Assembly (NCBI GenBank): GCA_011392765.1
Contig: WYCW01000004.1
Coordinates: forward strand, 234,038 to 298,037
DNA: 64,000 nucleotides
Source of the DNA: Candidatus Thiosymbion ectosymbiont of Catanema sp. Cochon2018
Lineage (GTDB): Bacteria > Pseudomonadota > Gammaproteobacteria > Chromatiales > Chromatiaceae
Reading direction: 5' to 3'
How positions within the stretch are numbered: position 1 is the stretch's first letter; each line of letters opens with the position of its first letter. Of the stretch, positions 1,453 through 37,086 are shown one piece after another. The notes below the pieces were generated by a model, which was not told the DNA's origin, did no database searches, and saw only the letters and a list, made by a program, of their open reading frames with translations. Both the position numbers and the translations under genes were made by a program.

Positions 1453-2282
1453 TAGGGGGTTCCTATGAGTGTAGGTATGGGTTCAGGCATCCCGTTACGT
1501 GTCTTTTCAACAGTAAGGGTGCTGAGTGGTTCGTCTTGAATTGAGGTAGTATTACTGACTCGTGTCTTTTTAGTGGAAATGGGATCTGGAGGTGTGTCTT
1601 GGTCCAAAATTCCCATCTCATCCTGCGATTTGGTAATAGTATGTTGCAAATGCTCTCCACTACTATTCAGGTATCCCACAGAAAGCAAACCAAGACCAAC
1701 GAAAGATAGCGCTATCAAGGTGACCAGACGGGAGGAAACGATGGGTTGGGGCCGAAGGAATAGGGGATCGGTTGCCTGGGATGGCAGGTCCGGCGCCGGA
1801 CCGGGTGGAGGCTGCTTGTAGGGCGGGCAGTCCAGCAGTTTGCGCAGCAGGGATTTGTATCCTTCCGGTCCGTCGAGACAGAAATAATCATATCCCTGGA
1901 GCTCGAGTGGGATATGTTCCTGGTCCGAGGCATGGAAAAAGACTGGAAAGATCCGGCCGTTGTGTAGCTTTTTCGAGTAGAGCAGATTTCGGATCAGCCT
2001 GGCCTCCCAACCAACGCCCAACCCGGTAGCGGGCTGCTTCTGGTCATCGAAACCCTGGTCATCGAAACGCTGCGCATAGGTGGGCGTCACGACGCAAAGG
2101 ACAGCATCCGCCTCGATGAGCTGTCGCTTCATCCAGGTAGGCCAATCCTCCTTCGTATCCTTGTAAAAATCGAGACGGCACGCGCACCCGTCCTGCCGGA
2201 GGCTGGCGTCCAGCCTCCGCACGCGCTCGGTATGCCCGTCATTGTCGTGGCTATAACTGATGAAAACGATGGGCTTATCCAT
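1452..2282 (-). CDS. SEFIR (TIR-like) domain protein with one membrane helix
   Basis: Residues 4-140 have the SEFIR/TIR fold signature: a start of the type VFISYSHDN followed by H..RV..L...LR..G, then LDFY and a conserved W-P-x-W-M segment, ADAVLCVVTPTY and GWEARLIRNLLY. Residues about 185-208 form a single hydrophobic helix, followed by a Thr/Ser/Pro-rich tail. SEFIR domains act in signalling complexes and, in bacteria, in several anti-phage systems, some of which use NAD+. Here the domain is tethered to a membrane and coupled (TAATG) to a lipoprotein gene. It lies 12 bases downstream of a Uma2 gene on the same strand, so the three may be one operon. Domain call firm; role inferred. Confidence 0.75.
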   Translation of the reverse strand: MDKPIVFISYSHDNDGHTERVRRLDASLRQDGCACRLDFYKDTKEDWPTWMKRQLIEADAVLCVVTPTYAQRFDDQGFDDQKQPATGLGVGWEARLIRNLLYSKKLHNGRIFPVFFHASDQEHIPLELQGYDYFCLDGPEGYKSLLRKLLDCPPYKQPPPGPAPDLPSQATDPLFLRPQPIVSSRLVTLIALSFVGLGLLSVGYLNSSGEHLQHTITKSQDEMGILDQDTPPDPISTKKTRVSNTTSIQDEPLSTLTVEKTRNGMPEPIPTLIGTP

Positions 2283-31251: not shown

Positions 31252-31355
31252 GCCTAACGGCATGGCTCGGGCGCCCAATGCCGCGTGGCATTGAGCTTGA
31301 AAGTTGCTGAGGAGCCAAACCGCGGCATTGGGTCGCCAGCAGCCGTATGTTAGGC
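31252..31355. other. attC recombination site 1
   Basis: GCCTAAC at the left and GTTAGGC at the right, with complementary inner arms (GCGCCCAATGCCGCG and CGCGGCATTGGGTCGC). It is 104 bases long and about 90% identical to the site at 32961. The stop codon of the XRE gene lies inside its right end, as in many cassettes. Confidence 0.8.
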
Positions 31356-32020: not shown

Positions 32021-32065
32021 GAGTGTAAAAATATCGCTTGATGCGAGGAGTGGGTAAATGCCTAA

Positions 32066-32296
32066 TGGGGAGCTAACCAGCAACCTCCCTTGCTCCCATG
32101 GACGGGGGCAAGGGAGGTTTGTCTGCGTTCAGCGTCTTGATAGGCGGCGCGTCTTCTGTTGCACTGACGTTGTTGTTAGGCGATTGCCTGTTTTGGTGTC
32201 TGAAACGGTTGGGGTATCAAAACGCCGCCGGGCAGATTTCTGTGTGCTTTCCGTTTGGTAATACGTTTTAGATTGCACGTGCTGGTTAGCTCCCCA
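32066..32296. repeat. 231-bp inverted-repeat element, copy A
   Basis: Ends are TGGGGAGCTAACCAGCA and perfect complement. Copy B at 34938-35168 has the same length and only a handful of base differences. It is followed by AATAAGCGGCGCAGGGACGC, as is copy B. No convincing gene inside. It is either a MITE or an unusual long attC-type site. Confidence 0.8.
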
Positions 32297-32405
32297 ATAA
32301 GCGGCGCAGGGACGCGCCGCTTATCGTAAGGCTCAGCCGCTGCCCAAAGCGGAGCAAGCAAAGCGAGCGACGCTTTGGGCAGTCGGCTGTGGCCTTTTGT
32401 TAGCT
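32297..32405. other. attC-like site (candidate)
   Basis: Inner arms CAGCCGCTGCCCAAAGCG and CGCTTTGGGCAGTCGGCTG pair; the right end is TTGTTAGCT, a good attC core. The left core is unclear because the 231-bp element adjoins it. Confidence 0.45.
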
Positions 32406-32433: not shown

Positions 32434-32946
32434 CTATTGCAGCAAACGGTTTTTACACTGCGCATAACTTTCAGCAACATACTGCCAACGCTCTCTTAGT
32501 CGCACCTGAAGAAGCATAAAATCTGTAGCCATAATCGGTCTTTCAGTTGCCTTTTTGAGCATATCCGTGTAATGCGAGGAATATCCATGGGTGAGATCAT
32601 CTGATTGAATTCGGAAATAATTTATGCATTCTTGGAAAAAGCTCAACGCACATTCTGGGTGTTTTTGATTTTCTTTTTCAATTTTTGTCCATGCATCTAT
32701 CGTTACTCGTAGAGCTTCAAGCTCAATCTTTCTCTCCTTAATTTCTTTATCAAGACGATCACTGTCGTCCCCAATTTCTGACATCCATTGCAAATCGTTT
32801 GTAGCTCTCAAATAGTCTTTGTGTATCACTTCCATGGACTCATAAATTGGCCCGATGTGGTCAGATAAAAGAGATCTTCGTTGCTCAGCGCGAGCCTGAA
32901 GCAACTGAATAATTCTATCTACCACTTTTACTGCTGAATCAAACAT
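32434..32946 (-). CDS. Helical cassette protein, unknown
   Basis: 170 residues, almost entirely predicted helix: 'VVDRIIQLLQARAEQRRSLL', 'YLRATNDLQWMSEIGDDSD', 'KERKIELEALRVTIDAW'. No signal or membrane segment. No family recognised. It lies alone between two attC-like sites in the same orientation as its neighbours, with markedly lower GC than the flanks, as usual for cassette genes. Confidence 0.6.
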   Translation of the reverse strand: MFDSAVKVVDRIIQLLQARAEQRRSLLSDHIGPIYESMEVIHKDYLRATNDLQWMSEIGDDSDRLDKEIKERKIELEALRVTIDAWTKIEKENQKHPECALSFFQECINYFRIQSDDLTHGYSSHYTDMLKKATERPIMATDFMLLQVRLRERWQYVAESYAQCKNRLLQ

Positions 32947-33806: not shown

Positions 33807-33952
33807 GCAGGGACGCGCCGCTTATCGCTGAGTTCAGCCGCGTGCGAACTTTTCCATGGCGGCTTGAACCATTGAACAACTCTCCATCTTCAGTGACGCT
33901 CGAACAATCACACGGGTAGCACGTCGGCTGCAACTATTTGTTATCTGCTGAT
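33807..33952. other. attC-like site (candidate)
   Basis: Inner arms CAGCCGCGTGC and GCACGTCGGCTG pair; the right end TTGTTATCT contains the stop codon of the next gene, as in attC1. The left core is not canonical; the GCGCAGGGACGCGCCGCTTA stretch is shared with 32301 and 35173. Confidence 0.45.
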
Positions 33953-34906
33953 CCATCTAATGAAATCCACGACGGCGGCTGGCAAGGTAAAAGCGATGAA
34001 AACGAGAGCCAATATTGTAACGAATACGGCACCGAGATTCACTGGCGGCGGTGCCCACCGTATCCGGAGATTCTGAAATACACTGCGAAAAGAGAATTTG
34101 AGACTTGGGATCACGGGTTTCTCGATGCCCTGTCGCCAAAAGGGGGAATGCAACTTGTGGAAAGTCGGTTTCCACTTGGAGGCAAACGCAATGACTGCCC
34201 AGAGCCCGTATCGATAATGACGAGCGTTTGGCGTTCCGCACGCCGGCGATTTCACGTCTGGTAAAGGGTGGGGAAATAGGCCTTCAGATGATTCGAGAAA
34301 GGACTGATAAAGGTCGAGGTCAGGTGGAACGAGCAGAACTAGTCGTTTCGATTTGGCGAGCTTCACAGCAGTACTGATTTCCCACCACAACCCCTCTGTC
34401 TGCCCGATCCGGACAACTACAAGCTGCGCTCGGCGCATGCACTTCTCGACGTACGACTGCCACTTGTCATCGTCAACGTATTGCCGCGCGGCGCCAAGCT
34501 GAGGCAATTTGTCATCCGGACGGCCGATTGCTATTACGGGGCCAATCTCGGATAGCATTTCGGCCAGCTGCTCCTCATTGGTGGACCGCACAAGTGGCGA
34601 CCGCCCGCTGTAGCTGGCACCGTGTTTATCTGCCGAGAATGAGCGAAGATATAGTACAGGTTTACGTTTGTCTTTGGTGAGTAGCTCTTCGGCGGAGAAC
34701 GCATTGTATTGTTTAACCCGTTTGGCGCAGCGAATAGCCACAACGCAGGTGAACATGCCTAACACGTAGCCGACTTGCCTGACCCAGTCCGGTAGGTTCG
34801 AAATACGCCCAACACCGAACCAGAGAAGCACGGCAAGCAATAAGAGGACAATTGTGAACAGCCGCCAACCGTTGAGTCGAAGTTCGTGGTAGGATGACCG
34901 CTTCAT
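33941..34906 (-). CDS. Membrane protein with TIR/nucleosidase-like domain (cassette)
   Basis: 321 residues. Two N-terminal helices (about 14-31 and 43-60) and one C-terminal helix (about 293-315) flank a soluble domain. The domain reads 'KPVLYLRSFSADKHG', 'EEQLAEMLSEIGPVIAIGRP', 'LGAARQYVDDDKWQSYVEKC', 'AQLVVVRIGQTEGLWWEIST' and 'SKRLVLLVPPDLD'. The order of strands, the E in the WWEI helix and the 'GRP' loop resemble TIR and deoxyribosyltransferase folds that bind or cleave nucleotides. I know similar uncharacterised proteins from integron cassettes but no assigned function. Stop inside an attC-like end. Confidence 0.6.
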   Translation of the reverse strand: MKRSSYHELRLNGWRLFTIVLLLLAVLLWFGVGRISNLPDWVRQVGYVLGMFTCVVAIRCAKRVKQYNAFSAEELLTKDKRKPVLYLRSFSADKHGASYSGRSPLVRSTNEEQLAEMLSEIGPVIAIGRPDDKLPQLGAARQYVDDDKWQSYVEKCMRRAQLVVVRIGQTEGLWWEISTAVKLAKSKRLVLLVPPDLDLYQSFLESSEGLFPHPLPDVKSPACGTPNARHYRYGLWAVIAFASKWKPTFHKLHSPFWRQGIEKPVIPSLKFSFRSVFQNLRIRWAPPPVNLGAVFVTILALVFIAFTLPAAVVDFIRWISR

Positions 34907-34937
34907 CGTATTAACGGTGTTGAAGTGTGACAGATAA

Positions 34938-35168
34938 TGGGGAGCTAACCAGCAACCTCCCTTGCCCCCATGGACGGGGGCAAGGGAGGTTTGTCTGCGT
35001 TCAGCGTCTTGATAGGCGGCGCGTCTCCTGTTGCACTGACGTTGTTGTCAGGCGATTGCCTGTTTTGGTGTCTGAAACGGTTGGGGTATCAAAACGCCGC
35101 CGGGCAGGTTTCTGTGTGCTTTCCGTTTGGTAATACGTTTTAGATTGCACGTGCTGGTTAGCTCCCCA
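34938..35168. repeat. 231-bp inverted-repeat element, copy B
   Basis: Same ends and length as copy A. ATAA flanks it on both sides (34934-34937 and 35169-35172), which could be a four-base target duplication; copy A has CTAA and ATAA. Confidence 0.8.
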
Positions 35169-35208
35169 ATAAGCGGCGCAGGGACGCGCCGCTTATCAGG
35201 TAGTAGAC

Positions 35209-35919: not shown

Positions 35920-37086
35920 TATACTCCCTATAGGCACAAAATACGAATTTTAAAATAAATTCCTGGAAAGACGTGTAACTTTCTGAGAGATGATATACTA
36001 AGTTGGGTTAGAGAGCTTATTGTGTACATTGAGGCAGCAATGATAAGAATCGACTTCCGCCCGCAGGATATCAAGAGGATTAAGCAGTTACGCTACGATG
36101 ACCCTCATCCAAGAGTGAGAAGGAGAATGGATGTGCTGTGGCTAAAAAGTCAGGGCCTTTCCCATCAGGAGATCTGTCGGCTTGCCGGTATTGGTAGTAA
36201 CACCTTATGCAAATACCTCAGGATGTATCAAGCGGGTGGGGTGGAAAAACTAATGGAAATTAACTTCTACGCCCCGACGAGTGAGTTGGATGAGCATCGA
36301 GCTCGCCTCAAAGCCCATTTTCGCGCGCATCCGCCAGCGACGCTCAAGGACGCGATAGCAAGCATAGAGCAGCTGACTGGAATCAAGCGCAGCCCCAGCG
36401 CCGTGGGAAAGTTCCTGAAGTCGCTTGGTATGCGCCCGAGAAAAGTCGGGTCGATCCCGGAAAAAGCGGACTCGGAAGAGCAAGAGAGATTCAAAATCAA
36501 TGAGTTAGAGCCGCGCCTCGAAGAAGCCAAGGAAGGCAAGCGCGCTATTTTTTTGTCGATGCTGCCCATTTCGTATTCGGACCTTTTCTCGGTGTACTGT
36601 GGTCATTTACACGCCTCTTTGTAAAGGCGACCGCCGGACGGAGACGTTTTAACGTTCTCGGCGCGCTAAATGCCATCACACATGAACTGGTGTTAATCAC
36701 GAATGACAGCTATATCAACGCCGAAAGTGTTTGTGAATTGCTCCGAAAAATCGCATCGGTAACGCATGGAGTAGCGATTACTCTGGTGTTGGATAACGCG
36801 CGTTACCAGAGATGCAAAATCGTCACCGCACTCGCCTTGAAACTCAATATCGAGCTACTTTTTCTGCCACCCTATTCACCGAACTTGAACCTCATCGAGA
36901 GAGTATGGAAGTTCGTCAAGAAAGAGGTTCTCTATTCCAAGCACTATTACGACTTTGGCAGTTTTAAACGTTCAATATCGGCGTGTTTAAATCAAACACA
37001 CACAACGTACAAGAAGGAGCTTGATTCGCTCCTCACGCTGAGATTCCAAGTGTTCAAGAAATGCAACATTGTGCCAATATGAAGTA
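35920..37086 (+). mobile_element. Complete IS630-family element
   Basis: About 1.17 kb bounded by imperfect terminal inverted repeats (TACTCCCTATAGGCACAAAA at the left, complement of TACTTCATATTGGCACAAT at the right) and by TA on each side. It is one of two near-identical copies in the window, which implies recent activity. Confidence 0.88.
36022..37082 (+). CDS. IS630 transposase, two frames joined by a frameshift site
   Basis: The first frame (36022-36624) begins about MIRIDFRPQDIKRIKQLRY and contains the helix-turn-helix 'GLSHQEICRLAGIGSNTLCK'. A second frame, entered at the seven-T run 36548-36554, carries FVDAAHF, LDNARYQ and YSPNLNLIE with the DDE residues. Frame change at a T run of this kind is a known way to make full-length IS630 transposase. 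Both copies in the window keep the run. Confidence 0.85.

Follow-up and report, generated by a model that had tools for sequence, protein, structure and literature searches.

The window, meaning the whole 64,000-nucleotide stretch analysed here, carries on its minus strand an open reading frame (ORF) that begins with ATG, encodes 321 amino acids and lies within a 368-codon frame free of stops. The initial annotation had placed an ORF at 33941-34906 and picked out three motifs, all of which stand in the translation: YLRSF (residues 86-90), IGPVIAIGRP (121-130) and WWEIS (174-178). The features of the locus are as follows.

31252-31355, minus strand: complete attC belonging to this array, outer boxes 7/7 (attC search)
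32434-32946, minus strand: gene of the next cassette, same orientation (ORF list, Pfam scan)
33816-33946, minus strand: approximate, degenerate attC of the ORF cassette, without a fold signal (z = 0.02; sequence read and folding)
33940-33946, minus strand: R''-like box AGATAAC of the cassette attC, overlapping the stop codon (read directly)
33941-34906, minus strand: ORF of 321 aa, membrane-anchored TIR/DNPH1-like protein (ORF list and translation)
33947-34036, minus strand: predicted C-terminal membrane helix, residues 291-320 (AlphaFold2 model)
34154-34657, minus strand: soluble alpha/beta core, residues 84-251, predicted TIR/DrHyd-type fold (models and structure comparisons)
34379-34381, minus strand: E176 of WWEIS, invariant Glu that falls on the catalytic Glu when aligned to TIR and NDT profiles (alignments, hhalign)
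34637-34651, minus strand: YLRSF motif in the loop after strand 1, R88 and F90 in 60/60 rows (core alignment)
34706-34789, minus strand: predicted membrane helix 2, residues 40-67 (AlphaFold2 model)
34808-34900, minus strand: predicted membrane helix 1, residues 3-33 (AlphaFold2 model)
34932-34937, minus strand: TTATCT at the 5' edge of the cassette, exactly complementary to the R'' box (read directly)
34935-35197, no strand assigned: repeated 263-bp element adjoining the cassette 5' edge (repeat search)

The 321-aa gene forms an integron cassette with one ORF, in an array that lacks an integrase. Read in the minus direction, the cassette starts with TTATCT at 34937, the ATG follows 31 bases on, and the stop codon overlaps AGATAAC; the two boxes are complementary, as expected of a cassette end. 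The earlier description of the gene as cassette-borne is thus borne out by its one ORF, its stop adjoining the attC and its 5' edge. The folded attC region, the boundaries of which are approximate, was no more stable than shuffled sequence. The next cassette shows the same arrangement with the pair TTAGCT/AGCTAAC, and the complete attC of the array folds at -35.2 kcal/mol; 40 sites similar to the latter are listed in the genome. The only intact integron integrase of the genome, which also has several decayed ones, is located on the same contig about 264 kb from the ORF (C11:532233-533174), so the array in the window is an attC cluster without an integrase. When the sequence upstream of the ATG was read by eye, no obvious ribosome-binding site was seen; this, together with the distance to the nearest intact integrase, makes expression of the ORF uncertain.

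Two other elements were observed near the cassette. The 263-bp element has copies at 32063-32325 and 34935-35197 in the window, with 16-bp inverted ends (GGGGAGCTAACCAGCA); genome-wide, at least 42 near-full copies were counted. Each of the nine copies examined follows a GATAAGC...GCTTATT hairpin, and the bases after it are ATTA or ATTG, at the beginning of the TTRRRY-like integron crossover box. It appears to be a high-copy element that uses integron recombination sites as targets or as a route of movement. Two adjacent ORFs at 36022-37082 on the plus strand resemble, by eye, a broken IS630-type transposase.

The 321-aa ORF, present as a single copy in its own genome, is a genuine, conserved gene and not a chance reading frame, since relatives with conserved motifs are encoded in genome contigs (78 loci among 355 pattern matches), on plasmids (4 of 72,556 plasmid records) and in one viral-labelled contig (L085, from 21 pattern matches). 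Median pairwise identity among the relatives is 32%, and the motifs are kept. We do not count L085 as viral, because its contig carries an apparent alanyl-tRNA synthetase gene (read by eye); no relatives were found among 50,697 phage records. By record title, the relatives belong to Actinobacteria, Proteobacteria (including deltaproteobacterial groups), Acidobacteria, Verrucomicrobia, Planctomycetes, Bacteroidota and Eremiobacterota. They were sought via two short sequence patterns, so the size and breadth of the family are lower bounds. A single-protein query of a phylum-wide sample matched 2 of 398 genomes, and a core-profile search of related genomes matched 3 of 74, the gene's own genome being included in both counts and a 291-aa relative being found in a genome of the same family. 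The window gene is therefore sporadic and accessory, while its relatives are deep and wide.

No curated family in Pfam, NCBIfam, PADLOC or PHROGs covers the window protein. Its Pfam matches to SfLAP (E = 0.011) and EamA (E = 0.076) were dropped, as they are far below the cut-off and largely over membrane helices. The window protein had no row of any strength for TIR (PF13676/PF01582), and the best of 64 family members, the only one to touch TIR_2, reached E = 0.033, short of the Pfam cut-off; neither the window protein nor the 64 members matched NDT/DNPH1 (PF05014). TM2 was matched in nine of the 64, in the membrane part. A Pfam scan of the extra regions in 10 longer relatives gave almost nothing.

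Two divergent copies were also noted. In a Nocardia sp., an intact member has directly upstream of it a degenerate copy (L043:4256-5353, plus strand) from which the YLRSF half is missing. L162:207-1919 (minus strand) encodes a 570-aa multi-helix membrane protein that aligns with the final part of the core profile (E = 1.2e-7), with LLLLRVFG and NQGCRFEL replacing YLRSF and WWE; it may possibly represent a second, more distant branch.

An AlphaFold2 model of the whole protein, built from 61 aligned sequences (pLDDT 87.2, pTM 0.85), starts with two membrane helices, continues with a soluble alpha/beta core and closes with a third membrane helix. The three helices that the initial annotation had drawn around a soluble domain correspond to the long hydrophobic helices predicted at 3-33, 40-67 and 291-320, and their presence at both ends supports the membrane linkage that it had proposed. 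When modelled alone, the core was much like the core of the whole-protein model (pLDDT 85.3). Lys and Arg are abundant in the linker from helix 2 to the core; following the positive-inside rule, the core is probably on the cytoplasmic side. A hydropathy scan placed the same core of the relatives behind one to several hydrophobic segments, many relatives also having a C-terminal one; a fragment (L059) had no such segment.

To compare folds, VIA-align was run on the 1000 chains ranked highest by Foldseek, and the best 50 rows were listed. With the whole-protein model, 46 of these 50 were DNPH1, the SPARTA TIR, the STING TIR or nucleoside deoxyribosyltransferases. Human DNPH1 was the top row listed (Z = 9.4, 3.1 A over 135 residues), followed in kind by SPARTA TIR-APAZ (Z = 8.8), the TIR of a bacterial STING, SfSTING (Z = 8.6), and nucleoside deoxyribosyltransferase (Z = 7.9). 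With the core-only model, DNPH1 again came first (Z = 9.5), and again 46 of the best 50 rows fell within the superfamily. The other four rows in each list were glycosyltransferases, LOG/YgdH-type proteins and a motor ATPase chain. A VIA-align Z of 9 is little above the usual noise of 7-8, and Foldseek E-values were weak (at best 9.6e-4, for DNPH1 with the core as query) with query TM-scores of at most 0.43. The assignment of the modelled fold leans on the consistency of the lists more than on single scores. DNPH1 ranked at or above the TIR domains, with tied Z values.

Other Foldseek rows, including ThiM, a racemase and an imine reductase, were dropped for their low TM-scores and their absence from both lists of the best 50. 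Sequence searches of PDB with both profiles (full and core) returned no member of the TIR/DrHyd superfamily; their best match, a designed TIM barrel (E = 6.8e-4), spans 46 columns only and was taken as chance. A viral fold library yielded no match below E = 0.001 for the model.

Both models show the three-layer alpha/beta Rossmannoid core seen in known members of the TIR-DrHyd-SLOG superfamily, from which the great majority of the best rows in the two comparisons came. The TIR-like domain proposed in the initial annotation is therefore of the TIR/nucleosidase kind in the predicted structure, and not of an unrelated fold. We consider this kind of fold, together with a conserved glutamate, to be well supported.

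The glutamate of WWEIS, which the initial annotation had singled out, is E176. It was kept in 85 of 86 aligned sequences, the remaining row showing a gap there. Residue counts were taken from a 60-row core alignment, A4. Its parent, A2, holds the window protein and 63 of 84 extracted relative regions, those omitted being mostly close relatives; removal of three plasmid rows gave A3, and removal of the truncated L043 copy gave A4. Three relatives, L002, L076 and L079, are near twins. R88, F90, E111, G128, W149 and E176 were present in 60/60 rows of A4, D93, R141 and W175 in 59/60, and the set R88/D93/E111/G128/R141/W149/W175/E176 was complete in 57/60. According to PMC9503650, members of the TIR-DrHyd-SLOG clade carry polar residues at two places, behind strand 1 and in a helix that follows a later strand. 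R88 and D93 take the first of these positions. E176 takes that of the active-site residue after strand 3: in the AlphaFold2 model it sits in helix 171-183, directly after strand 162-166, which is the third strand only when the short strand 140-143 is left out of the count.

Profile alignments also set E176 on a conserved glutamate of both TIR_2 (hhalign, 40 columns, P = 1.4e-4, probability 53%) and the nucleoside 2-deoxyribosyltransferase (NDT) family (31 columns, P = 0.0018, probability 15%). When the alignments were cut to first-sequence columns, the scores were 31.2 for NDT and 29.1 for TIR_2. None of 200 column-shuffled profiles reached the real scores (maxima 19.2 and 19.0, respectively), and reversed profiles gave 13.4 and 16.9. 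The second catalytic acid of DNPH1 is D80. A counterpart was sought by sequence alignment in columns 150-160 of A4, and a conserved acidic residue was absent from them.

Genes neighbouring the relatives were counted over 82 loci and also inspected at 37 chosen loci. The profiles for SLATT, patatin, TPR-S, STALD and DUF4328 were seeded from neighbours already seen, so the seed loci match them by construction; the TIR profile came from other genomes. Twenty individually scanned neighbour genes had been picked by eye as promising and are not a sample, so the counts rest on the 82-locus scan. DUF4328 was found at 21 loci, TIR at 7, SLATT at 5 (L042, L068, L072, L076 and L079), patatin at 2, TPR-S at 2 and STALD at 1. 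At least one of TIR, SLATT, patatin, TPR-S and STALD occurred at 13 of the 82 loci, and 69 had none in reach. A TIR_2 gene was present at 7 of 78 loci, as compared to 0.9 expected from the TIR_2 density of those genomes (P = 2.9e-5, assuming even spacing of TIR genes along each genome). Some members are thereby linked to nucleotide-based conflict systems; the surroundings of the other members give no such hint.

Individual loci add further observations. The DUF4328 membrane-protein gene lies downstream of the member at all 21 loci (L003, L024, L027 and 18 others), all in Actinobacteria, which suggests a two-gene unit in that group. In a Croceivirga sp. (L081:3215-9029), genes for TPR-S, a patatin phospholipase, the family member, STALD-SLOG and TIR-FGE form one run that is likely a conflict island. 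At L012, only about 15 bases separate the start of the member from the end of a preceding gene that matches TIR and WD40. The window itself has a TIR_2 match at 1851-2267 (minus strand), and its host genome has 41 TIR_2 matches, the most of 94 sampled genomes.

These results led us to propose that the window protein is a membrane-tethered N-glycosidase of the TIR/DrHyd superfamily, most likely an NAD+-acting defence enzyme, delivered by an integron cassette; we regard the case for this as evenly balanced. The cassette gene would encode an inner-membrane protein with a divergent TIR-DrHyd-SLOG member as its cytosolic core. Upon phage attack or envelope stress, the tethered proteins would cluster and the core would be activated. 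It would then use E176 as its catalytic glutamate to cleave the N-glycosidic bond of NAD+ or of a related nucleotide, and cause NAD+ depletion or the release of an ADP-ribose signal. We favour NAD+ as the substrate on two grounds: PMC9503650 describes TIR domains as NAD+ specialists, and some relatives have TIR and SLATT neighbours; nucleoside monophosphates remain candidates given the similarity to DNPH1. NADase activity is our best guess for a protein whose data a DNPH1-like N-hydrolase or a signal-producing cyclase would fit as well.

It is possible, if unlikely, that the core acts as a DNPH1-like N-hydrolase, cleaving (deoxy)nucleoside monophosphates or a modified nucleotide instead of NAD+, and so either limits the supply for phage or plasmid replication or disposes of odd nucleotides. 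The first place of human DNPH1 in both VIA-align comparisons and in the Foldseek search with the core is consistent with this, as is the placement of E176 on the NDT glutamate. However, the TIR rows follow within 2 Z units (within 1 in the whole-protein comparison), the TIR_2 hhalign alignment is longer and scores better than that of NDT (an order reversed in another run), and TIR and SLATT genes are found among the neighbours of relatives. DNPH1/RCL and the NDTs (PF05014; DrHyd) resemble the window protein in the core fold and in the glutamate of the post-strand helix. Unlike them, the window protein is without a PF05014 match and has membrane helices at both ends, and its family appears, from alignment A4, to lack a conserved acid in the helix after W149 and has a signature of its own (YLRSF..D, R141, W149).

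Production of a cyclic or modified signal from NAD+ or a nucleotide, which would open a partner in the membrane, for example SLATT or DUF4328, seems improbable to us. The relatives' DUF4328 and SLATT neighbours point in this direction, and PMC9503650 describes TIR genes beside 2TM SLATT genes in firmicute phages. The window gene, in contrast, is a one-gene cassette beside which no SLATT- or DUF4328-type partner was seen; SLATT was not found among its six scanned neighbours, and the SLATT profile, seeded with L042, L068 and L002 (the latter a near twin of L076), matches these by construction. The solitary action proposed in the initial annotation fits the one-gene cassette, as opposed to the 21 DUF4328 and 5 SLATT loci, which may reflect partnered relatives. 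A non-catalytic sensor, with the core as receptor for a nucleotide or ADP-ribose derivative and the membrane helices as effector, is very improbable: inactive superfamily members do act as nucleotide sensors, according to PMC9503650, and the protein is built around membrane helices, but a near-invariant catalytic-type glutamate and polar residues are probably more than binding alone usually needs.

The membrane-tethered NAD+-cleaving enzyme that we favour can be compared with known systems. NAD-cleaving TIR domains (SPARTA TIR-APAZ, the SfSTING TIR and TIR_2, PF13676) share the fold, and the W149 region and E176 align with TIR_2. In contrast to them, the window family is membrane-embedded, has YLRSF where TIR usually starts F-I-S-Y, and touches TIR_2 in only one of 64 members. 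TIR + SLATT conflict systems are also comparable, in that the five relatives named above have SLATT genes nearby. In PMC13174449, DUF4062 (Swarozyc) is another unnamed TIR/NDT-like family, found by the same route, with a conserved glutamate, a patchy distribution and a place near defence genes, and is a phage-triggered NADase, which sets a precedent for the reading that we favour. The window family was rejected as DUF4062 (PF13271) itself: the hhalign probability was 2.2%, and the 64 members had no DUF4062 match at E 0.1.

NAD-cleaving enzymes of the TIR type play a central part in the immunity of bacteria, plants and animals. New TIR branches are still emerging (DUF4062, 2026), and the present family spans several phyla with membrane anchors of its own; no description of it was found in the open-licence PMC literature. 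We tentatively suggest, while leaning somewhat against it ourselves, that it is an undescribed TIR-DrHyd branch built into the membrane, coupling membrane events to cleavage of NAD+ or another nucleotide, and that the window copy is a complete, cassette-sized, one-gene immune module. If true, the immune functions borne by integron cassettes would gain a one-gene candidate.
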